Part shown: piece after piece, positions 42,950-56,560 of the stretch
How positions within the stretch are numbered: position 1 is the stretch's first letter
How the letters are laid out: every line of letters begins with the position of its first letter
DNA from: Halothermothrix orenii H 168
GTDB taxonomy: Bacteria; Bacillota; Halanaerobiia; Halanaerobiales; Halothermotrichaceae
Length of the DNA: 64,000 bases
Direction: 5' to 3'
NCBI RefSeq assembly: GCF_000020485.1
Contig: NC_011899.1
Coordinates: forward strand, 2,302,501-2,366,500
Program-made: the position numbers and the translations under genes
The notes under the pieces: generated by a model
What the model was told of the DNA's origin: nothing
Databases searched by the model: none
Seen by the model: the letters and a program-made list of their open reading frames with translations, nothing else

Positions 42950-43606
42950 CTAATAAGCTTTCCTTTCTCCACTCACCATATAAATAACACGTTCACAAAT
43001 ATTTGTGGAGTGGTCTCCGATTCTTTCTAAAAATCTGCTTACAAACATAAGGGAAGTAGCCTGCCTTATTTTGGAGGGATCCTCAATCATAAAGGTTAAA
43101 AGCTCCCTTAAAATCTGTTCATCAAGAATATCTACCTCTTCATCCTCCCGGGCAACCTTTTTGGCCAGCTCTATATCCAGATTAACAAAGGCATCAAGGC
43201 TTTCCCGGAGTCGCCTGGTTACAATTTCTGTCATCCGGGGAATATCAATTAAGGGTTTAATGAGAGGTTCTTTTCCAATTTGATGGACCATTCTGGCAAT
43301 ATTACTGGCATGATCACCAATTCTTTCTAAATCAGTAGCCAGTTTAGAGATCACTATAATAGTACGTAAATCTTTGGCAACTGGCTGTTGCAGGGCAATT
43401 AACCTGGTACATCTCTCTTCCAGTTCTACCTCAAAATCATCTATTTTGTCATCCCCATCCATCACCTGGGTGGCCAGGTCTAAATCCTGTTCTTTAAGGG
43501 CTTTAACACTATCATGGATAGCTTCTTCGACCATACTCCCCATTTTTAACATTTCATTCTTTAATTCCTTAATAGACTCATGAAAGCTTTTACGCACAAA
43601 AATCAC
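42950..43606 (-). CDS. phoU: Phosphate signalling protein PhoU
   Basis: The 218-residue all-helical protein has two PhoU three-helix repeats with metal-binding segments DLERIGDHASNIA and FLERIGDHSTNICE. PhoU links the Pst transporter to the PhoR kinase and signals phosphate sufficiency. It is the last gene of pstS-C-A-B-phoU and starts 14 bp after pstB. A terminator follows about 125 bp later. Confidence 0.95.
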   Translation of the reverse strand: MIFVRKSFHESIKELKNEMLKMGSMVEEAIHDSVKALKEQDLDLATQVMDGDDKIDDFEVELEERCTRLIALQQPVAKDLRTIIVISKLATDLERIGDHASNIARMVHQIGKEPLIKPLIDIPRMTEIVTRRLRESLDAFVNLDIELAKKVAREDEEVDILDEQILRELLTFMIEDPSKIRQATSLMFVSRFLERIGDHSTNICERVIYMVSGERKAY

Positions 43607-43620
43607 CCTCTTTTATAATA

Positions 43621-44382
43621 TTATCCAAAACGACCGGTAATATAGTCCTCTGTCCTCTGGTCAGATGGGTTTTCAAAAATAATGTCTGTCTCATCAAATT
43701 CTACTAATTCACCCATCAGGAAAAAGGCCGTTTTATCAGAGACTCTGGCCGCCTGTTGCATACTATGGGTAACAATAACAATGGTATAATTATCTTTCAG
43801 TTCATCTATTAATTCTTCTATCCTGGCAGTAGCAATAGGGTCAAGAGCTGAAGCAGGTTCATCCATTAACAGCACCTCAGGTTTAACTGCCAGGGCTCTG
43901 GCTATACATAGGCGTTGCTGTTGCCCACCTGAAAGACCCAGGGCTGATTCGTTAAGTCTATCCTTTACTTCATCCCAGAGAGCCGCCCCCCGTAAACTTT
44001 CCTCAACAATCTGATCCAGGGTTCCCCGGTCTTTAATTCCATGAATCCGCGGTCCATAGGCAATATTATCGTAAATTGATTTTGGGAAAGGATTGGGTTG
44101 CTGAAATACCATACCAACCCTTTTCCTGAGTTCAACAACATCAGTTTCTTTACTATATATATTTTCCCCATCCAGAAGAACCTTTCCTTCTACCCGGGCC
44201 CCTTCAATTAAATCATTCATTCTATTTAAAGTCCTCAAAAAAGTTGATTTACCACACCCGGATGGTCCAATCAGGGCCGTAACTTTATTCTCTTCAATAG
44301 GCAGATTAATATCCTTAAGGGCCTTAAAATCCCCATAATAAAAGTCAAGGTTCTGTACATCTATTTTCAATTTTCCGGACAT
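43621..44382 (-). CDS. pstB: Phosphate ABC transporter ATP-binding protein PstB
   Basis: The ATPase of high-affinity phosphate import. Walker A is GPSGCGKST, the signature is [15 protein letters not shown], and Walker B is [13 protein letters not shown]. The 253-residue length and [11 protein letters not shown] segment are typical of PstB. It is the only pstB in the window, so the second pst set (pstS2-C2-A2) would have to share it. Confidence 0.96.
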
Positions 44383-44408
44383 GACTGATTACCCCTTTCT
44401 TCCCTGTT

Positions 44409-45263
44409 TCATTTTTTCTTAAATTTTTTTCTGAACCTGGCCCTTATAATTATAGCTGCTAAATTGATGACAAGCACCAGTGTTATCAAAACCATGGCTG
44501 TACCATATGCCAGGGGCCGAACTTTTGCAATAGCATGGTGCTGGGTAGCCAGGATATATAAATGATAGGGTAAAGCCATAAACTGACTAAACAATGAGTC
44601 AGGCAAAAAGGGCAGGAAAAAAGCAGCTCCGGTAAACAATATAGGAGCTGTTTCACCTGCAGCCCTGGCCAGACCAAGGATGGAACCTGTTAACATTCCC
44701 GGAATAGCAGCCGGTAAAACATTGGTTTTAATACTCTGCCACTTGGTAGCCCCCAGGGCCAGAGCCCCTTCACGATAGGAACGGGGGACTGTTTTTAAAG
44801 CCTCTTCACTGGCTGTAATAGTTATCGGTAAAGTCATCAAACCCAGGGTCAATCCTGCTGATAAAATAGATGTCCCAAATCCCATACCCTGTACAAAGAG
44901 AGCAACACCAAACAGACCAAAAACAATGGAAGGAACACCGGATAGATTCCTTATAGCCATTCTTATAACCCTGGTTAATATACCTTTTCTGGCATACTCA
45001 TTTAAATATATAGCAGCAAACATACCTAAAGGAACTGAAACCAGAGCGGTAATAACAGTAACATAAAAGGTCCCTACAATGGCTGGAAATATTCCTCCTT
45101 CAGTCATACCGTTTTCAGGCATCCGGGTTAAAAACTCCCAGCTAATGGCCCCGATCCCTTTTGAAACTATATCAAATATTATTATTCCCAGGATTAATAA
45201 TACAAGTATCCCTGAAAGCCGTAAAATACCGAAACCCATCTTTTGTTTCATCTCTTCTGACAT
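44409..45263 (-). CDS. pstA: Phosphate ABC transporter permease PstA
   Basis: A 284-residue permease with six helices, the segment NLSGVPSIVFGLFGVALF, and an EAA-type loop (REGALALGATKWQSIKTNVLP). It forms the channel with PstC. It starts immediately after the pstC stop. A second, frameshifted copy lies at 49318-50197 and aligns with it throughout. Confidence 0.95.
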   Translation of the reverse strand: MSEEMKQKMGFGILRLSGILVLLILGIIIFDIVSKGIGAISWEFLTRMPENGMTEGGIFPAIVGTFYVTVITALVSVPLGMFAAIYLNEYARKGILTRVIRMAIRNLSGVPSIVFGLFGVALFVQGMGFGTSILSAGLTLGLMTLPITITASEEALKTVPRSYREGALALGATKWQSIKTNVLPAAIPGMLTGSILGLARAAGETAPILFTGAAFFLPFLPDSLFSQFMALPYHLYILATQHHAIAKVRPLAYGTAMVLITLVLVINLAAIIIRARFRKKFKKK

Positions 45264-46139
45264 TTACTCTACCTCCTGGTATTTGTTAAGAATTATGTCA
45301 GAAACTAAATTTACTATAAAGGTCATAATGAAGAGGACCAGTCCCACCATAAACAGGGCATAATAATGGGTAGAATTATAGGGGACCTCACCCAGCTCTA
45401 TAGCAATTGTAGCTGTCATTGTTCTCACTGAATCAAAAAAGCCTCCCGGCAGGGCAGGGGCATTACCGGTAGCCATTAACACTGTCATGGTTTCACCAAT
45501 AGCCCTTCCCATCCCGAGCATTATAGCAGCAATAACCCCTGATAGTGAAGATGGTATTGTAACCCTGGTCAGGGTTTGCCAGTCATTAGCCCCCAGGCCC
45601 AGAGAGGCCCTTTTAAATTTATCGGGCACAGAAGAAATGGCATCTTCCGATAGACTTATTATAGTTGGAAGCGACATTATGGCCAGGAGAATAGCTCCGT
45701 TCAGGGCATTTAATCCATTGCTTAATCCAAAAGTACTGGCAATTACCGGTCCCAGTAATACAATTCCTAAAAACCCAATTACAACTGAAGGAATCCCTGC
45801 CAGTATTTCTATTACCGGTTTAAGAATACTTCTGGCCCGGGGACTGGCTACCTCTGATATATAAGCAGCAGTAGCCACTCCCAGGGGGACAGAAATAACC
45901 ATGGAACCCAGGGTCACCATCAGGGTACTCAGAATTTGCCCCAGAATGCCATAACCAGGCTCATTATAAGAAGTCGGATTCCATCTGGCTGAAGAGAAAA
46001 AGGATTTAAGTCCCAGCTCCTGAATAGCCGGCCAGCTATTCTTTATCAGTAAATAAAAAATACTGACCAGGGCAATAATTACTACTAATCCGTTTAACAT
46101 AAAAAACAGTTCTATCAATTTCTCCTTCCAGCGGCGCAA
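45264..46139 (-). CDS. pstC: Phosphate ABC transporter permease PstC
   Basis: A 291-residue, six-helix permease with PVIEILAGIPSVVIGFLG and the loop FKRASLGLGANDWQTLTRVT, typical of PstC. It is the partner of PstA. The start lies 28 bp after pstS; the stop abuts pstA. Transcription should come from the PhoP-boxed promoter ahead of pstS. Confidence 0.95.
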   Translation of the reverse strand: MRRWKEKLIELFFMLNGLVVIIALVSIFYLLIKNSWPAIQELGLKSFFSSARWNPTSYNEPGYGILGQILSTLMVTLGSMVISVPLGVATAAYISEVASPRARSILKPVIEILAGIPSVVIGFLGIVLLGPVIASTFGLSNGLNALNGAILLAIMSLPTIISLSEDAISSVPDKFKRASLGLGANDWQTLTRVTIPSSLSGVIAAIMLGMGRAIGETMTVLMATGNAPALPGGFFDSVRTMTATIAIELGEVPYNSTHYYALFMVGLVLFIMTFIVNLVSDIILNKYQEVE

Positions 46140-46167: not shown

Positions 46168-47076
46168 TTAAAAATCAAGATTCTTTTTGTTTAGCTTCTG
46201 GTATTCAGGGCTTACAGGATAAAAACCTTCTTCCACAGCAATTTTCTGACCTTCTTCACTTAACTCAAATTTAATAAAATCAAGAACTGCTCCTTCAGGT
46301 TTACCATTTACATACTGGTTTAAAGGCCTGGCCAGAGGATAGCTGCCATTTTTTACATTTTCAGCCTTGAGAGGACTAACCGCCGGATCGTTTTCTGTCC
46401 TGGAAACATTTACAATGTTAACACCTTCAATCTCATGACCGTTGTCATCAACTACATAACCAACACCAACATACCCAATTCCTGCATTATCAGCCTTGAT
46501 GGCTTCAACAATCTGGGCATTACCATTCATCCTTTTCATATTCTGGGAATAATCACCTTTAAGGACATGATCCCTGAAAAATACAAACGTTCCTGAATTA
46601 CTCTGCCTACCGTAAAGAGATATTTCCTGATCGGGACCACCAACATCTTTCCAGTTGGTTATTTCACCTTTAAAGATTTTTCCAATCTGTTCAACAGTCA
46701 GTTCAGTTACAGGATTTTTTTCATGAGTAATAACAGAAAGACCATCCATAGCGATTACAATTCTTACAGGATCAACACCATTTTCCTCAGCCTGGTTAAT
46801 TTCTGATTCTTTCATCGTTCTTGAAGCATTGGCAATATCAACTTTTTTGTTTATAAGGGCAGCAATACCTGTCCCGGATCCCCCTCCGGTAACCGAAATT
46901 TTTGTATCTGAACCCTCCATGTATACCTCTGCCAGGTGCTGAACCAGGTTTACCTCAGTATCAGATCCTTTTATTTGAATATAAGCCTGCTGTTTGGTTC
47001 CTCCTCCACCACAACCAGCCAGTCCAACTATTAAAACTAAGCTCAATAATAATACTGTTAGCTTTTTTAAATTCAT
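46168..47076 (-). CDS. pstS: Phosphate-binding lipoprotein PstS
   Basis: The signal peptide ends in the lipobox VGLAGCGGGG, so the mature protein is membrane-anchored. The binding-fold motifs IKGSDTEVNLVQHLAEVY, VTGGGSGTGIAAL and GRQSNSGTFVFF contact phosphate. AAGGAGGG precedes the ATG. It is the first gene of the pst-phoU operon; a promoter with five PhoP-like boxes lies upstream. The second PstS (51268-52089) is divergent in sequence and has no lipobox. Confidence 0.95.
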   Translation of the reverse strand: MNLKKLTVLLLSLVLIVGLAGCGGGGTKQQAYIQIKGSDTEVNLVQHLAEVYMEGSDTKISVTGGGSGTGIAALINKKVDIANASRTMKESEINQAEENGVDPVRIVIAMDGLSVITHEKNPVTELTVEQIGKIFKGEITNWKDVGGPDQEISLYGRQSNSGTFVFFRDHVLKGDYSQNMKRMNGNAQIVEAIKADNAGIGYVGVGYVVDDNGHEIEGVNIVNVSRTENDPAVSPLKAENVKNGSYPLARPLNQYVNGKPEGAVLDFIKFELSEEGQKIAVEEGFYPVSPEYQKLNKKNLDF

Positions 47077-47126: not shown

Positions 47127-47191
47127 AGTATAACAATTATTAGTTAATTTATTGTTACATCTTTGTTAAAATAATGTTAACAAAAAGTAAA
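47127..47191 (-). promoter_or_regulatory. PhoP-box promoter of pstS-C-A-B-phoU
   Basis: On the minus strand five hexamers occur at exact 11-bp steps: TTTACT (47186-47191), TTAACA (47175-47180), TTAACA (47164-47169), GTAACA (47153-47158), TTAACT (47142-47147). A -10 TATACT (47127-47132) begins nine bases after the last box. B. subtilis PhoP binds TTAACA-like repeats with 11-bp spacing, so this is a strong PhoP-activated promoter candidate. Confidence 0.9.
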
Positions 47192-47240: not shown

Positions 47241-49274
47241 TTAAATTTGAAAATTCCTGATAAGTTTATTTAATTCCTCGGTCATTTGAAACAATTTCCT
47301 TGATCTGTTGTTTATTTCCTCAATTGAGCCTGTTTGCTCTTCACTGGCAGCAGCAACTTCTTCTGCACTGGCAGAAAATTCTTCCGAAATATCCGCTATC
47401 CTTTTAATATGTCTACTAATCTCTTCACTCTGGACCTTTGCTGTCTGGACATTTGTACTGGAATGTTTGATACCTCCTGTAACTTCCTCAATTGATTCTC
47501 TAATTCTAATAAAGGCCTGGTTGGCTGACTGGACAACTTCTTCTCCATATTTTATCTGCCGGGTCCCTTCTTTCATCTTCCGGGAGACTTCATCGGTTTC
47601 CCGGTGGATATCGGTAATTAATTTCCTTATTTTACTCGAAGAACGGGCTGACTCTTCGGATAATTCCCTGATCTCTTCAGCAACAACACTGAATCCCCTC
47701 CCGGTCTCACCAGCCCGGGCTGCTTCTATGGCTGCATTTAATGCCAGCAGGTTGGTCTGTTCAGCAATTCCATTAATAATTTCAAGAATAGAATCTATTT
47801 CACTGGATATCTGCTCCAGGTTTTTTATTTTTATAGCTACTTCACTGATTGAATCATTAATATTAACCATTTGTTCTTTTACTTTAGTCATTTCTTCCTG
47901 TCCCTGAATGCTGGCAATATCCATTTCAGATGATAAATCTTCCACCAGTTTATTTGTAGTAGCTAGTTCTTCCATTTGCTCTGAGAGATTTTTTATTTTT
48001 TCTTCAACTTCTTCAACATTATTGGCCTGCTCATAGGCTCCACTTGATACTTCCTGAATAGAAGAAGCCACCTGTTCAGAAACCTGACTGATCATATTAG
48101 ATGATTCTTTCATATCTTGGGAAGCACTCTCAACCTGCCTGGCAGTATCATCAATACTTTGTATGATATGTCTCATCTGGCCAACCATCTTTTTAAAGGC
48201 CCCGGCCAGAATCCCCAGCTCATCTTTATGATTAATTGTTAATTCAACATTCAGGTTGCCCCGGGATACCTTTTGCATTTCATCTTTTATTTTTAAAACC
48301 GGCCTGATTAAATAAAAACTAACCAGTATAAATATGGTGACCATAACCACAACTAGTATAGAAATTCCTACTTTAATTATTTTATTTTTAATCAAATCCT
48401 GAACTATATAGGCTTCTTTTTCAGGAATCTGGGCCAGCAATGCTCCAACCTTATCAAGGGTTACATAGGAAACCAGTAATTTTTCATTATCAACTGAATA
48501 ATTGAAATCTCCCTTCTTTGATTCATAAATATGGTTAATATTAAAATATTTACCCATATTTATCTTTTTATTGTTGTCATCATGTTCGGGATGTGCTATA
48601 ATGTTGCCATTCTTATCAATCATATAAACATAACCGGTTTCTCCCAGTTTCCATTTAATAATATCTTTTAAATATTCAATGGATATATCAGCACAGATTA
48701 CCCCAGTATACTGATCACTATAATCAAAAACAGGAACAGCCACCGTAATTGCATATCCTTTTCCAGTTATTTTTTTATGTAAAGAAAGCCAGGTTGCTTT
48801 CCTGGAATTTTTTATTTCTTTATATCACTCCAGGTTTTTAAATTCATTTGATGTTTTTTTACGGGGAATAATTGTTACTTTATCCTTGTTACTGATAAAA
48901 TATATTGATTCAAAATAATCCGATTGTTGTAACTCATCTTCAAAAATTCTACGGGCTACCAGATGGACCTGATCATTGGAACGAAAACTATAGTTCTCAG
49001 ACATCAGCTTCACCCGCTTTTCCGCCTGTTTAATACTAATATCTACTTCTCTTTTTAGAAGCTTTGCAATCTCTAAATTCCTTTCTTTTGTATCTTCAAT
49101 AATTCGCTCCGAAACTGAATCATTTATTATATAACCCAGGGCAAATAAAGATATACTAATAATAATCCACATGATAAAAACCGCTTTGGCAGTAATACTA
49201 TGCCTAAAGTCTAATATCCATCTGATAATATTGTCTGGATATATCTTTCTTAGATATTTTAACATTATATTCAC
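47241..49274 (-). pseudogene. Methyl-accepting chemotaxis protein, interrupted by an in-frame TGA
   Basis: Read through, this is a 677-residue chemoreceptor. It has an N-terminal membrane helix, an extracellular Cache-type sensor (about 50-370), a second helix and HAMP (about 375-445), and a signalling domain with the hairpin tip [23 protein letters not shown] at 48825-48827 interrupts the sensor: NLE[18 protein letters not shown]. The frame is kept, and TGA differs from a Trp codon by one base, so a point mutation is the simplest explanation. It lies between the two pst operons. No CheW or CheA genes are nearby. Confidence 0.87.
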
Positions 49275-49317: not shown

Positions 49318-50197
49318 CTAGCAGCTTTTTTTCATTTTTGTCCTGTATCTAATTCTTAATATTATAGCTACTAAATTAATTACCAGGACCAGGGCCAGTA
49401 ATACCACTGCAGTGCCATAAGCCAGAGGTATCTGTTTGGATGGGAATGTCCCTGCTGTAACCAGAGCATAAATATGATATGGCAAGGCCATAACTTCATC
49501 AAATACAGATCCCGGTAATCTCATTGAAAAGAAGGTTGCTGCTGTAAATAAAATGGGTGCTGTCTCCCCCGCAACTCTACCAATTCCAAGGATACAACCT
49601 GTCAGTATTCCGGGCATGGCAGCCGGTAAAACTACATTTTTAATTGTTTGCCAGTTAGTAGCTCCCATAGCCAGGGAAGCTTTTCTATACTCATCAGGTA
49701 CTGCCATCAGGGCTTCTTCAGAGGCCCTGATAATGGTCGGCAATATAACTATACCCAGAGTCAATGCCCCAGATAAAATGGAAACACCGAAGTTGAATAA
49801 CTTTACAAAAATAGCCAGACCAAATAGTCCAAAAACAACAGAAGGGACCCCGGCCAGGTTATTCACACCAACCCTGATAATTCGAACAACCCTGTTACCT
49901 TTTTTAGCATATTCGGTCATATTATATTGCTGCAAAAACCCCAAGGGGAGCTGCAAATATAATTGCACCTGATACTAAATAAAAGGAACCCAGGATAGCC
50001 GGTAATATCCCACCCTCAGTCATTCCATTCCTGGGCATCTGGGTAATAAACTCCCAGTTAACAACAGCTAAACCCCTTTTAAATATAAATAAGATAATTA
50101 ATGCCAAAATACCAAGGGCTATAAACAGAGTTAACCCAAAAAAAGAAAAGGCAATTTTCTGTTTTAAATGACGATACTGTAATTTATTAATTTTCAT
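49318..50197 (-). pseudogene. pstA2: Second PstA permease, frameshifted
   Basis: Two overlapping frames together cover a whole PstA. The first (50197 to a TAA at 49922) ends APLGVFAAI. The other frame continues YNMTEYAKKGNR, matching FAAIYLNEYARKG of the intact pstA. Loss of one base near 49921-49926 (TATAAT read as TAAT) would explain it. The rest, with NLAGVPSVVFGLFGLAIF and the EAA-type loop, is intact. As written, the second Pst transporter cannot assemble unless it borrows PstA from the first operon. Confidence 0.87.
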
Positions 50198-51075
50198 AAT
50201 CCACTCACCTTCTCTTTAAAACGTTGGGAAGCAATATCGGCGATAATGTTAAAAAGTAAAGTAATAAAAAACAAAATTATACCTATCCCAAATAGAGCAT
50301 GGTAGTGTTCACTTCCAACAGGTGCCTCTCCCATCTCTGCTGCTATGTTAGCTGTCATCGGCCTCAGGGGCCTGAGAATACTATCAGGCATAGCTGAAGC
50401 CCCACCGGCAACCATCAAGACAGTCATGGTTTCCCCGATGGCTCGACCCATTCCCAGAATAACAGCTGTTACAATACCGGAAGAAGCAGTTGGTAAAATA
50501 ACTTTGCTTATTGTCTCCCATTTAGTTCCACCAAGGGCCAGTGAAGCATTTCTAAAGCTTTTAGGAACAGAAGATATGGCATCTTCAGCCAGACTGGATA
50601 TGGTTGGTAAAGCCATAATCCCCAGCATAATTGAAGCAGTTAAGCCATTAAGACCTGTCGGTAAATTAAATAAGTCTCTAATAAAAGGAGCCAGTATTTT
50701 CATACCAAAAAGACCATAAACCACTGATGGCACCCCAGCCAGCAACTCAACAATTGGTTTAACATAATTTTTTAATTTATCAGGTAAAATATAAGATATA
50801 AATATTGCAGAAGATATACCCAGAGGTACCGAAACCACCATAGCTCCAACAGTAACCAATAGTGAAGCACAAATCAAAGGTAAAATTCCATAATCATCAT
50901 AATAAGGATACCATTCCCGCCCGAAGATAAATTCCAGTATGCCTGTTTCGTTGAATATAGGCAAACCTTCATTAAAAAGGGTTATTACAATTGCTGTTAA
51001 AAACACAATTGAAGATAAAGCAAAAATAAACAGGGTTCCCTTAATTAACTTCTCTTTAGTTTTCCAGTTCAACAT
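50194..51075 (-). CDS. pstC2: Second PstC permease
   Basis: A 293-residue permease of the PstC family with PIVELLAGVPSVVYGLFG and the loop FRNASLALGGTKWETISKVI. The ATG at 51075 follows GGGGAGG closely; an upstream in-frame ATG at 51150 has no support. The stop overlaps the start of pstA2 by four bases. It is intact although its partner pstA2 is broken. Confidence 0.92.
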   Translation of the reverse strand: MLNWKTKEKLIKGTLFIFALSSIVFLTAIVITLFNEGLPIFNETGILEFIFGREWYPYYDDYGILPLICASLLVTVGAMVVSVPLGISSAIFISYILPDKLKNYVKPIVELLAGVPSVVYGLFGMKILAPFIRDLFNLPTGLNGLTASIMLGIMALPTISSLAEDAISSVPKSFRNASLALGGTKWETISKVILPTASSGIVTAVILGMGRAIGETMTVLMVAGGASAMPDSILRPLRPMTANIAAEMGEAPVGSEHYHALFGIGIILFFITLLFNIIADIASQRFKEKVSGL

Positions 51076-51267
51076 AACATCCTCCCCTGTAATACTTTTT
51101 ATAGGTAACTGTAGAGGGGGGATACTATCCCCCCTTTGTTTTAATGACATATACTGTTGCTTATATTATTATAAACTTATCTGGTGGTATTCTAATTGGT
51201 AATGTTAACTCTTACTTAATGTTTTTTATATGACTTCTTGTTGTGTGTTTTTAATTCTGGCTTACTT

Positions 51268-52089
51268 TTAGTATAAAGGAACATAACCTACTTCTTTAAC
51301 AATCTTCTGACCTTCAGGGCTTAAGATAAAATCAATAAATTTCTTGGTTAATCCTCTGGGCCACCCATTTGTAAACATATACAAGGGACGAACAATCATG
51401 TACTGAGAGTCACTTGGCAGATGACCATTTAATTTTACAGCTTTTACATCATCATTTAAGTAACCCAGACCGATATAACCGATAGCACCAGGAGTATCAG
51501 CAACTGTAGCCCTTGCTTCACCGTTAGAAGCCTGTAACAGAGCCCTGCTGGTAACCCTTAAAGCCTCATTATTTAATTCTCCATCATTGGCAATGTCATT
51601 AAATACAGCAAAGGTACCAGAACTGGAGTCACGGGAGACAACAACTATTTCCTGATCTTTACCACCCAGCTCTTTCCAGTTAGTAATTTTACCGGTGTAG
51701 ATCCCCTTTAACTCTTCTACAGTTAAGTCAGATACAGGGTTACCGGGGTGAACAACTACAGCAATAGAGTCTTTGGCTACTCTATGGGGTACAGGATAAA
51801 TACCATTGGCAATAGCTGCACTTACCTCTTTGTTTTTAATAAAACGGGAAGCGTCTGCTATATCAACAGCTCCATCAATTAAAGCAGCAATACCATTACC
51901 GGAACCGCCACCCCTCACAGAAATATGAACATCATGTTTAGACATATAAACTTCCGCAGCTTTCTGAGCAATGGGTAATACGGTAGAAGAGCCCTGAATA
52001 AACAAAGTATCAGAGGCTAATACTCCGGCTGACAATAAAGTTACCAATGCAATAACCAGCAAAGCAATCAAATTCTTTGAATTAAACAT
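51268..52089 (-). CDS. pstS2: Second phosphate-binding protein PstS (no lipobox)
   Basis: A 273-residue phosphate-binding protein: QGSSTVLPIAQKAAEVYMS, VRGGGSGNGIAALIDG and SRDSSSGTFAVFND. The signal peptide (ends near GVLASD) has no lipobox cysteine, so unlike the first PstS it may be released or held otherwise. It leads the second pst set and has its own PhoP-boxed promoter. Confidence 0.93.
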   Translation of the reverse strand: MFNSKNLIALLVIALVTLLSAGVLASDTLFIQGSSTVLPIAQKAAEVYMSKHDVHISVRGGGSGNGIAALIDGAVDIADASRFIKNKEVSAAIANGIYPVPHRVAKDSIAVVVHPGNPVSDLTVEELKGIYTGKITNWKELGGKDQEIVVVSRDSSSGTFAVFNDIANDGELNNEALRVTSRALLQASNGEARATVADTPGAIGYIGLGYLNDDVKAVKLNGHLPSDSQYMIVRPLYMFTNGWPRGLTKKFIDFILSPEGQKIVKEVGYVPLY

Positions 52090-52134: not shown

Positions 52135-52199
52135 ATCATAGCACGACAATGTTAAAGGCATATTACGATCTGGTTAACACGGAGTAAATGTTATGTTAA
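52135..52199 (-). promoter_or_regulatory. PhoP-box promoter of pstS2
   Basis: On the minus strand five hexamers occur at exact 11-bp steps: TTAACA (52194-52199), TTTACT (52183-52188), TTAACC (52172-52177), GTAATA (52161-52166), TTAACA (52150-52155). A -10 TATGAT (52135-52140) begins nine bases later, the same geometry as the first pst promoter. This lies in the 311-bp gap 52090-52400, whose other end holds the phoPR terminator. Confidence 0.88.
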
Positions 52200-52275
52200 G
52201 AGATTATTAAGAATCAAATTATTAAAACCACAAACATGGCAACGAAATCCTTTATACAAAAATTAAGTCAAATAA

Positions 52276-52400: not shown

Positions 52401-54185
52401 TCAGTTAACTTTATTTAAATAAAACCTGAATAGACTCCCTTTACCTGGCTCACTTTCAACCTTTATCTCACTATCATGATTTTTTATTATGTGTTTAACG
52501 ATGGATAACCCTATCCCGGTTCCTCCCATGGAACGGGACCTGGCTTTATCCACTCTGTAAAACCGCTCAAATATACGCCCCTGATCTTCCTCAGGTATTC
52601 CTATTCCATTATCCTCAACTTCAACAACAACTCTATTATTTTCTTCATATGCCCTTAAAATAACCCGACCACCGGGTTCAGTATACTTTATACCATTATC
52701 AACAAGATTAATTAAAACCTGCTCAATCTGTTCAGGAATCAGATAAACGAAAGGTAGTTTTTCCTTAATATCCAGTTTCAGATCAATATCTTTGGATTCA
52801 GCCTGTTCCTGTAACATAAGGTAAATCTTTTTAACAATCTTATTAAGGTCACCAGGCTGCAATATGACCTCTCCCCTTTTTGCCTCCAGTTTGGAGAGGT
52901 CAAGTAAATCTTTAATTAATAAATACAGTCTATCAGCTTCATCCTTAATTATACTTAAGAATCTTTTAATTGTAGTATCATCCTTTATATCATTGTCAAT
53001 AATGGTATCAATATATCCTATAATAGACGTTAAAGGAGTCTTCAGTTCATGGGACACATTGGCAACAAATTCCTTTCTAAGCTGTTCCAGCCGCCTGAGT
53101 TCGGTAACATCTGTTAAAACTATCAAACCCCCGGCCACCTGGCCCTCCTTATTTTCTATGGGAGCAAAATTGAGGCGAATTATTTTTGACCCTGGTGTCT
53201 GGAAATTAAGTTCCTCCTTTAATATTTTCTTTTTTTCTAAAGAAGTTTCTAAAAGCTGATCAACTTTATGATGTCTTATAACCTCAATAATATCTCTCCC
53301 GAGAACACCTTTATTCAGTCCGAGTATCTTTCGGGCCGCTGGATTTACCATGGTTATTTTTTTCTCATTATCTGTAACAATTAATCCATCTACAATACTG
53401 GTAAAGACCGCTTCAGTCCTGCTTTTTTCCCGGAATATTTCTTCAATTTTCCTTTCAAGCTCATTGGCCATATAGTTGAATGAATGAGCCAGTGTACCCA
53501 GTTCATTATTATAACTATTGAGGACTATTCTTTCTTTAAAATTACCATGGGCTAGCTTCTCGGCCATTGACCCCAGCTTATTTAAAGGTCTAACAAGACC
53601 GTTACTGAAACCCCAGGCCAGAATAAAAGAAAGAATAACAGTTAAGAAGAAAAACAACAAATAATTCTGGGTATTTTTTTCAATGGTCTCATTAATTGCA
53701 TTCAGGGATTTACTTAACCTTAAAAATCCTGTTAAGTTTCCGTTGACTTTAATCGGCAGTGAATAATAAAACATCTGCTGTTGTAAGGTCTTGCTTCTCC
53801 TGATTCGGTATGAGGAATTCTTACCATTTATTAATTCAATAATTTCAGGGCGGTTTAAATGGTTATCCATTTTTACAGGGTTATAATGGGAATCAGCCAG
53901 TACTTTTCCTGACATGTCGATTACAGTAAGCCTGGAATCTATATCACTTCCTATACTTTTAATCCATTTATCAAGTATCCGGGGATTATCATATTCTTCC
54001 ATGAAAACCTCATTTAATAATAAAAGCTGTCCCTGATGATCAAGGTTAATTTTTAGCTGGTCTAAGTAAAACTCCCTCTCATTATGGTTAAAATAAATAA
54101 ATAACAACCCCATAATAATAAGCTGGGTTACAATAAATAGTACCAGAAATTGATTTTTAATACTCAGGTCATTCCAGTTTAACAA
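52401..54185 (-). CDS. phoR: Phosphate-regulon sensor kinase PhoR
   Basis: The 594-residue kinase has two membrane helices flanking an extracellular sensor (about 30-165), a HAMP linker (about 190-245), and a PAS domain (about 250-355). The dimerisation helix has EFVANVSHELKTPLTSIIGY (phospho-His). The ATPase has NLVDNGIKYT, DNGIGIP and GTGIGLSIVKHI. The start is TTG at 54185 with AGGGGTGGGG upstream, overlapping phoP by 17 bases. With PhoP it should activate both pst operons when phosphate is low. Confidence 0.93.
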   Translation of the reverse strand: MLNWNDLSIKNQFLVLFIVTQLIIMGLLFIYFNHNEREFYLDQLKINLDHQGQLLLLNEVFMEEYDNPRILDKWIKSIGSDIDSRLTVIDMSGKVLADSHYNPVKMDNHLNRPEIIELINGKNSSYRIRRSKTLQQQMFYYSLPIKVNGNLTGFLRLSKSLNAINETIEKNTQNYLLFFFLTVILSFILAWGFSNGLVRPLNKLGSMAEKLAHGNFKERIVLNSYNNELGTLAHSFNYMANELERKIEEIFREKSRTEAVFTSIVDGLIVTDNEKKITMVNPAARKILGLNKGVLGRDIIEVIRHHKVDQLLETSLEKKKILKEELNFQTPGSKIIRLNFAPIENKEGQVAGGLIVLTDVTELRRLEQLRKEFVANVSHELKTPLTSIIGYIDTIIDNDIKDDTTIKRFLSIIKDEADRLYLLIKDLLDLSKLEAKRGEVILQPGDLNKIVKKIYLMLQEQAESKDIDLKLDIKEKLPFVYLIPEQIEQVLINLVDNGIKYTEPGGRVILRAYEENNRVVVEVEDNGIGIPEEDQGRIFERFYRVDKARSRSMGGTGIGLSIVKHIIKNHDSEIKVESEPGKGSLFRFYLNKVN

Positions 54186-54849
54186 ATTTATACCCCACCC
54201 CTCTCACGGTAACAATATAATTATCCCCGATCTTTCTTCTTAACCTCCTTATATGAACATCAACAGTTCTGGTATCCCCTGCATATTCATAGCCCCAGAC
54301 TTTTTCAAGTAGAATATCACGGGTTAATACCTTACCCGAATTTACCAGTAGATGACGCAATAAATCAAATTCTTTAGGGGTTAAGTTTAAAACCTCCCCT
54401 CCCTTACGGGCTTCATGACTGGATACATCTAATTCAAAATCAGCTTTTTTTATTAACTCATTATCACTCTTTTCTTCATTCTTTTGCACTCTGCGGAGCA
54501 CGGCCTTAATCCTGGCAACCAGTTCCCGGGGGCTAAAGGGTTTGGTTATATAATCATCTGCTCCCATTTCTAACCCAATAATTTTGTCCACTTCTTCCCC
54601 TTTAGCAGTTAACATGATTATGGGAATATCTTTAAATCGGTTATTGGACCTGACCTGCCGGCAGAAGCTCAGTCCATCAATCCGGGGCAACATTAAGTCA
54701 AGGATAATCAAATCTATGGAATCATTCAACCTGTCCCAACCTTCTTCTCCATCAGCGGCCAGTTCTACCCTGTAACCTGCCGTCTCTAAATTAAATTTAA
54801 TAAGCTCCCTGATATTCTCTTCATCATCTATAACCAGTATTTTCTCCAT
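54169..54849 (-). CDS. phoP: Phosphate-regulon response regulator PhoP (OmpR family)
   Basis: The receiver domain (1-120) has the acidic pair DDEE, phospho-Asp in LIILDLMLPRIDG, and LTAKGEE. The winged helix (about 130-226) has ARKGGEVLNLTPKEFDLL and VDVHIRRLRRKIG. GAGGAG precedes the ATG. A TATACT lies just upstream, within the gap after the Na/Pi gene terminator, but no PhoP boxes are seen there. It pairs with the 3' phoR gene. Confidence 0.95.
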   Translation of the reverse strand: MEKILVIDDEENIRELIKFNLETAGYRVELAADGEEGWDRLNDSIDLIILDLMLPRIDGLSFCRQVRSNNRFKDIPIIMLTAKGEEVDKIIGLEMGADDYITKPFSPRELVARIKAVLRRVQKNEEKSDNELIKKADFELDVSSHEARKGGEVLNLTPKEFDLLRHLLVNSGKVLTRDILLEKVWGYEYAGDTRTVDVHIRRLRRKIGDNYIVTVRGVGYKFVKLE

Positions 54850-54913: not shown

Positions 54914-56560
54914 TTATAAAGCTTCTGTCATACTGTGGGCAATATCGGCTGCCTGGTCACTGATATGCTCTAATCTATCAAGAATTTCAAGGTATACTAT
55001 ACCAGCCCCGGGCTCACAGATACCACTACCAAGTCTTTTTAAGTGACAATTCCTGTTTTCCAGCTGGTATTGATCCATTTTATCTTCAGCATCCAGAATC
55101 TGGGTTGATAACTCAAGATTTTCAGTCTCAACCATCTCATATGAAGACTCAATCAGGTCAAAAATTAAATCAAAATTTTCATTAAGGCTCTTCCAGGCTT
55201 CATCTGAATACTTGAGATTATTCTCCCAGCTGTAACTACCCAGTTCTACCATTTCTACAGCATCATCAGCTATACTTTCTATATCATCAATTATGGCATA
55301 ATACATATTTAAAACCCTCAAATCCCCTCCAGATAGAGAATTACGGGGAACACTACTTATAAACTTGATCAGGTCTTCTTCTATTTCATTTATAATATCT
55401 TCTTTATGGTGAACCGCTTTTACTATCTTACTATCATGGCCCTCCTTAAATATTTTTATAGATTCCCTGACCATTTCCTGGGTAATACCATACATCCTTA
55501 TAACTTCTTTCTTCAACTGATTTAAGGCGAGACTGGGTGTCTTTAGCATCCTTTCATCAAGATAATTTAAGCCCCGTTTTACTGCAACCTCATCACCTGG
55601 TAAAACAGATTTTACTATTTTAACCATAAAACCAACAAACGGTAACCATAACAGGGTATTAAGGACATTAAACAGGGTATGTGTATTGGCAAGTAACCTT
55701 TCTGAAGTAGGGGTATGTCCAAACAGGTTAGATAATTTAATCAAAAATTGATGTATACTATCAGTAAAATCAGGGATCACATATATTAATACAATTACAA
55801 TACCAGCTCCCAGTACATTAAAAATAAAATGGGCAGCTGCTGCCCTCTTGGCAGAACGGTTAGCCCCGATACTTGATAAAATTGCAGTAATGGTAGTCCC
55901 AATATTACTACCAAGCAAAATCGGGATACCGGCCTGATAAGTAATAGCACCCACTGAAACAAGACCCAGGAGAATACCAAAGGTAGCACTACTGCTCTGA
56001 ATTACCATGGTAACCAACATTCCTGCCAGAACCCCGAGCAGGGGATAACTACTGAAGTTTTCCATTAAATTTAAGAAATACACTGAATCTCGCAGGGGTT
56101 TCATGGTGTCACTCATAGTATTTAACCCCAGGAACAAAATCCCGAACCCGAGTAAAACCTGTCCCAAATATTGTATCTTTTGATTACGGGAAAATAGATA
56201 AGCAAAAGCACCAATAGTTATAGTGTGGAAAGCATAATCGCCAAGTTTAAAGGCTACTATCTGGGCAGTCACTGTCGTACCAATGTTAGCCCCCATAATA
56301 ACCCCGATTGATTGAGAAAGGGTCATCAATCCAGCATTAACAAACCCTACTACCATAACCGTAGTGGCACTACTACTCTGGATAATAGCTGTAACCAGGG
56401 TACCCACCAGAACCCCGACCAGGGGTCTTGTTGTTAATATAGCCAGAAAATGACGGAGCTTTTTACCCGCCACCTTTTGAAGCCCCTCACTCATTTGTTT
56501 CATACCGTAAATAAATAAGCCTAGCCCACCCAACAAAGGAAAAACCAGTTGTAACGACAA
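54914..56560 (-). CDS. Na/phosphate cotransporter with C-terminal PhoU-like domain (NptA/YjbB type)
   Basis: Residues 1-310 are a NptA-type transporter with two inverted repeats, each carrying the QSSSAT motif (IIQSSSATTVMVVGF and VIQSSSATFGILLGL) and a GxNIGTT segment. Residues about 340-545 are PhoU-like helices. The start is TTG at 56560 after GGGGAGGGG. Family members move phosphate with sodium, import in animals and probably export in bacteria such as E. coli YjbB. Direction here is open. It sits upstream of phoPR, extending the phosphate island. Confidence 0.9.
   Translation of the reverse strand: MSLQLVFPLLGGLGLFIYGMKQMSEGLQKVAGKKLRHFLAILTTRPLVGVLVGTLVTAIIQSSSATTVMVVGFVNAGLMTLSQSIGVIMGANIGTTVTAQIVAFKLGDYAFHTITIGAFAYLFSRNQKIQYLGQVLLGFGILFLGLNTMSDTMKPLRDSVYFLNLMENFSSYPLLGVLAGMLVTMVIQSSSATFGILLGLVSVGAITYQAGIPILLGSNIGTTITAILSSIGANRSAKRAAAAHFIFNVLGAGIVIVLIYVIPDFTDSIHQFLIKLSNLFGHTPTSERLLANTHTLFNVLNTLLWLPFVGFMVKIVKSVLPGDEVAVKRGLNYLDERMLKTPSLALNQLKKEVIRMYGITQEMVRESIKIFKEGHDSKIVKAVHHKEDIINEIEEDLIKFISSVPRNSLSGGDLRVLNMYYAIIDDIESIADDAVEMVELGSYSWENNLKYSDEAWKSLNENFDLIFDLIESSYEMVETENLELSTQILDAEDKMDQYQLENRNCHLKRLGSGICEPGAGIVYLEILDRLEHISDQAADIAHSMTEAL

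Follow-up and report, generated by a model that had tools for sequence, protein, structure and literature searches.

The window analysed here is a stretch of 64,000 nucleotides of the Halothermothrix orenii H 168 genome (NC_011899.1, positions 2,302,501 to 2,366,500; the genome is one contig of 2,578,146 bases), and coordinates refer to the window unless marked as genome positions. H. orenii belongs to the order Halanaerobiales and is anaerobic and thermohalophilic (PMC2626281). The minus strand of the window carries a phosphate island, to which all features located below in window coordinates belong. It begins with a Na/Pi cotransporter with a PhoU domain (54914..56560), a PhoP/PhoB-like response regulator of the OmpR family (54169..54849), presumed to bind the boxes described below, and a phoR-like histidine kinase of the PnpS/PhoR type (52401..54185), presumed to be its partner. 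The next genes are pstS2 (phosphate-binding protein, 51268..52089), the permease gene pstC2 (50194..51150), the permease gene pstA2 (49318..50197), which a single frameshift near 49925 divides into two ORFs, and a methyl-accepting chemotaxis protein (47241..49274) with one in-frame TGA near 48825. A complete operon closes the island, with pstS for its phosphate-binding protein (46168..47076), pstC, pstA and pstB (43621..46139) and phoU (42950..43606).

The phosphate-uptake genes at these promoters score above the cut-offs of TIGR02136, TIGR02138, TIGR00974 and TIGR00972; PstS2 passes the first of these and PstC2 the second. The kinase exceeds the cut-off of the NCBIfam PnpS model (NF046044). 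For the regulator the best model is the PhoB equivalog TIGR02154, with 252.9 bits against a cut-off of 296.2, and we therefore name it PhoP/PhoB-like only. The phoP-phoR pair (52401-54849) lies just upstream of pstS2, a position that suggests it as the cognate pair of the boxes. A PhoR gene is also found upstream of pstS2 in all five relatives examined, in one of them with phoU in between.

Upstream of pstS2, five TTAACA-like hexamers and an extended -10 occupy 52135..52199. In the direction of transcription the boxes read TTAACA (52199-52194), TTTACT (52188-52183), TTAACC (52177-52172), GTAATA (52166-52161) and, proximal to the promoter, TTAACA (52150..52155), and they are followed by TGC TATGAT (52135..52143; -10 hexamer at 52140-52135). 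The comparison promoter of pstS has the same arrangement at 47127..47191, with TTTACT (47191-47186), TTAACA (47180-47175), TTAACA (47169-47164), GTAACA (47158-47153), TTAACT (47147-47142) and TGT TATACT (47127..47135; -10 hexamer at 47132-47127). In both, the boxes keep an exact 11-bp period, the start of the last box lies 15 bp from the start of the -10, and boxes and -10 together measure 65 bp. A TGn motif precedes both -10 hexamers, which makes them extended -10 elements, and neither promoter has a recognisable -35, the last box filling that region.

These coordinates confirm the 65-bp span that an earlier note on this DNA had reported as common to the two promoters. The same note had the spacers differing under conserved spacing, and alignment bears this out: the boxes agree at 23 of 30 positions (binomial P of roughly 1e-8, with window composition setting chance identity to 0.265) and the -10 hexamers at 4/6, whereas the spacers agree at 5/29, slightly under the 7.7 expected by chance. 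The note had further called the geometry identical, which holds for the five boxes and the -10 but not for the arrays as wholes: pstS2 has a sixth in-phase box, TTAATA (52205..52210). Both this box and the TGn of the two -10 elements had escaped the note. The corresponding slot of pstS reads ATTTGC and contains no in-phase box, so that the arrays number six boxes at pstS2 and five at pstS.

The window was scanned with a hand-made five-box position weight matrix, whose weights were chosen and not trained. It gave 34.3 bits for pstS and 31.9 bits for pstS2, while none of 30 simulated Markov-1 windows exceeded 18.1 bits and the best score outside the two promoter regions, among the best 12 of the window scan, was 15.5 bits. 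None of these best 12 lies upstream of phoP or of the Na/Pi cotransporter, and autoregulation through such an array is accordingly not supported.

The whole genome has five places with four boxes in phase (8 overlapping matches, against 2 in the reversed control), namely the two pst promoters and three others. A stricter pattern, requiring three boxes and a TGn -10 in phase, matches exactly twice, at the promoters of pstS and pstS2 (control, 0), and dropping the TGn adds two perfect matches, at genome positions 814419 and 1209604. With one mismatch allowed there are 38 matches versus 18 in the reversed control, a background too high for naming any regulon members other than the four perfect matches. 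Across the 38 genomes of the order, the strict pattern has 38 matches versus 1 in the reversed control.

Both additional perfect matches have a -10 at +15 and no TGn. One (L004, genome 1209593-1209646, TATAAT) precedes genes for a PAP2 phosphatase and a GT4 glycosyltransferase, the latter with weak, below-cut-off similarity to glycolipid synthases, which makes this a candidate phosphate-sparing lipid operon. Homologues in three relatives have a clear array in the same phase in one case (L235) and degenerate ones in the others (L234, L236). The other match (L003, genome 814408-814461, TAATAT) overlaps the 3' end of one gene and is followed by an ordinary-looking TTGACA promoter; we take the overlapped gene to be trmFO-like and the downstream genes to be hslVU-like.

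We then compared the layout with that of relatives. A PstS2 search had matches in 28 of the 38 genomes of the order, and the first test set comprised 28 loci, 26 from as many relatives and our own two; these span 15 genera, and many genomes are congeneric, so the loci are not independent. At every locus the pattern TGnTAnnnT was present no further than 54 bp from the third box in the best array of three, and the extended -10 always held the same phase on the 11-bp grid, never another, while shuffling the downstream part gave a mean of 0.33/28. Among four further PstS-like matches of that search three agree in phase, and the fourth, a distant homologue in a relative (34% identity), has no array. 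This brings the total to 31 of the 32 PstS-like loci tested, two loci cut by contig ends having been left out. When the -10 was chosen by score alone, the distance of 15 bp was recovered at just 12/28 loci, the remainder giving 10, 18, 20, 23, 24, 26 or 29 bp, and the phase result thus depends on requiring the extended -10. The scatter has two sources, the frequency of weak AT-rich look-alikes and the truncation of some arrays.

Column information was calculated from one promoter per genus (15 genera) together with our own pstS, 16 sequences in all. Average information is 0.97-1.43 bits for box columns and 0.14-0.29 bits for spacer columns over the three slots that precede the last box; the last box itself has 1.09-1.73 bits per column, and the five columns after it 0.10-0.53. 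The arrays were located with the box matrix, hence this contrast between boxes and spacers is partly by construction. The number of recognisable boxes differs among promoters, and the penultimate box is degenerate in most promoters of one genus (g9). The fixed layout is not peculiar to the pstS/pstS2 pair. Selection on protein contacts, which the earlier note had proposed for these two promoters, would explain this pattern and is strongly supported, because grid and phase are kept in 31/32 loci while the spacers carry little information.

Beyond the order, the spacing was followed with a pattern that allows 17 different gaps between the last box and the TG. In the class, 21/59 genomes matched, our own order included, and a gap of 6 accounted for 22 of 28 matches (control, 0). 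In the phylum 32/398 genomes matched, with this gap in 26/41 matches (control, 1). Thirty of the phylum matches lie outside the class list; 17 of them have a gap of 6 and 4 a gap of 7, the latter all from one family. A gap of 6 is thus the commonest spacing in class and phylum, though only a minority of lineages have TTAACA-type boxes and some matches show another distance.

The same grid also occurs at other kinds of genes. Nine similar protease genes in nine genomes of genus g9 (L079-L082, L085-L087, L097, L099) have upstream arrays built mostly of TTAAT-type boxes, which share the 11-bp grid of the pst promoters and the phase of their TGn -10; one of these genes was checked by Pfam and contains trypsin and PDZ domains. 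The arrays suggest another OmpR-type regulon with identical geometry. In three genomes (L078, L083, L084) a phased array stands before similar genes, of which the one checked encodes a CBS-GGDEF protein, so that a link of this promoter type to cyclic-di-GMP signalling is possible.

Several observations bear on whether the two operons work as one. The pstS2 operon has no pstB, and of 61 matches to the PstB model in the genome only one exceeds the cut-off, the pstB of the pstS operon. The earlier note had spoken of both transporters, a wording made uncertain by the frameshifted pstA2 and by the sole above-cut-off pstB, which belongs to the pstS operon. Since the genome has one such pstB and pstA2 is interrupted, the two operons may form one co-expressed system. 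The pstA2 homologue is open in 5/5 relatives examined and the chemoreceptor gene in both relatives where it was found; the interruptions in H. orenii may reflect either decay or sequencing error.

The arrangement of the two promoters varies among these relatives. In L229 and L231 one phased promoter precedes pstSCA and a chemoreceptor gene, and a second lies before pstB-phoU several kilobases further downstream; the stretches examined showed no second pstSCA, although elsewhere in its genome L231 has two more PstS-like matches, both distant. The second promoter of L228 and of L230 stands before pstS1, and the pstS2 operon of L230 also carries pstB. L232 has a single operon, pstSCAB-phoU, and no second promoter was found there. 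These arrangements suggest that parts of a single system are often driven from the two promoters, and this would give a reason for co-regulation. We note that L229 and L231 have an open chemoreceptor gene after pstSCA and in the orientation of pstSCA, an order also present in the window and a hint that chemotaxis towards phosphate may be phosphate-controlled.

Taken together, both sites are very probably Pho-box promoters of the H. orenii phosphate-starvation regulon, activated by a PhoP-type array that fixes the distance to the -10. They show the traits of such promoters, with direct repeats of 11 bp, boxes in the -35 region at a fixed short distance from the -10, a site at phosphate-uptake genes and a two-component system encoded in the same genome. 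Direct observation covers the boxes, their grid and phase, their conservation and the gene context. From this context we infer the identity of the regulator, its binding, the response to phosphate and the transcription start. At low phosphate, the neighbouring kinase would phosphorylate the PhoP-type regulator, whose subunits would then line up head to tail over the direct repeats of 11 bp, along one face of the helix. Bound there, the regulator would stand in for a -35 element and bring in the main sigma factor; the extended -10 with its TGn, a single grid step past the last box, would complete the promoter. Such a complex would fix the distance from the last box to the -10, leaving the spacers free to drift and the number of upstream boxes free to vary.

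A more ambitious reading takes the phosphate promoter of this lineage to be a rigid cassette and joins four propositions: that the TGn -10 stands exactly one step after the last box (31/32), that promoter strength is tuned only by the number and quality of upstream boxes, that one or more other OmpR-type regulons use the same grid (TTAAT boxes at protease genes), and that the single pstB behind the second promoter serves a pstSCA lacking its own. We put this combination forward tentatively, as somewhat short of an even chance.

Co-regulation of the pstS and pstS2 operons, also proposed in the earlier note, appears likely from the sequence, because the genome has only two strict matches and phoP-phoR lies just upstream. 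The two operons could still share a promoter kind and differ in practice, through another phosphate threshold set by the extra or weaker boxes of pstS2, or through one of them being silent. The arrays do differ in number (six versus five) and in quality (GTAATA and TTAACC at pstS2), the interrupted pstA2 with the chemoreceptor that follows it would fit a decaying operon, and Streptococcus pneumoniae controls its two pst operons differently, according to PMC4913102. In that species, however, the Pho box reported is that of pst1, pst2 being constitutive (PMC4913102), whereas here both operons have strong arrays that score nearly equally, and we regard separate regulation as unlikely.

A different regulator of the OmpR family might read the boxes in place of the neighbouring PhoP, if the grid and phased -10 were common to several members. 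Indeed, the genome encodes three full OmpR-type DNA-binding domains, that of the PhoP-like protein and those of two other regulators, and the same grid with TTAAT-type boxes at protease genes of relatives (by eye; one gene checked with Pfam) means that the regulator cannot be told from the grid alone. Strict matches in the genome are nevertheless confined to the two pst operons, beside phoPR, and 11 of 29 loci inspected in relatives precede pst genes (N-termini read by eye), which leaves this alternative quite improbable. That the identical geometry is merely the remnant of a recent duplication of a pst operon with its promoter, an idea invited by the adjacency and homology of the two operons, is scarcely credible and was rejected on spacer identity no better than chance and on PstS proteins only 45% identical over residues 10-214, relatives moreover carrying both promoter types. 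An ancient duplication with subsequent selection would agree with our preferred explanation, that of Pho-box promoters with a -10 distance fixed by a PhoP-type array.

The resemblance of two promoters has thereby become a measured rule, kept in 31/32 loci and usable to predict phosphate regulons in this anaerobic order. A partial literature search found no published account of this promoter pair, and in the part of the H. orenii genome paper that was accessible, the main text has no word beginning with 'pst' or 'PhoP'.

The pst promoters described here have the standard PhoB/PhoP architecture and the ordinary mechanism that goes with it. PhoP-activated promoters of Bacillus subtilis carry TTAACA-type direct repeats, similar in box sequence to those of H. 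orenii. The likeness extends to the 11-nt direct repeats described in PMC4415409, where Pho boxes are presented as 11-nt direct repeats on which PhoB is bound head to tail. Structural models support strict spacing (PMC10294691). In Escherichia coli the Pho boxes are placed 10 bp upstream of the -10 (PMC1906773, in part), and E. coli pstS (NC_000913, by eye) has four boxes that repeat every 11 bp as here, with a -10-like TATTTT after them. It differs in that the boxes are CTGTCA-like, there is no TGn, and the distance to the -10 start is 17 bp counted from the C of the last box (16 from its T), compared with 15 bp in H. orenii. Cyanobacterial SphR Pho boxes (CTTAACCT repeats) combine 8-bp boxes and 3-bp linkers into the same 11-bp period, and a cyanobacterium also has two pst operons in one genome, both regulated by SphR; they differ in having at least three boxes and in belonging to another lineage (PMC1906773, in part). 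S. pneumoniae likewise has two pst operons, one of which is preceded by its only PnpRS system, but these operons lie apart and Pho-box control is reported for pst1, with pst2 constitutive (PMC4913102).
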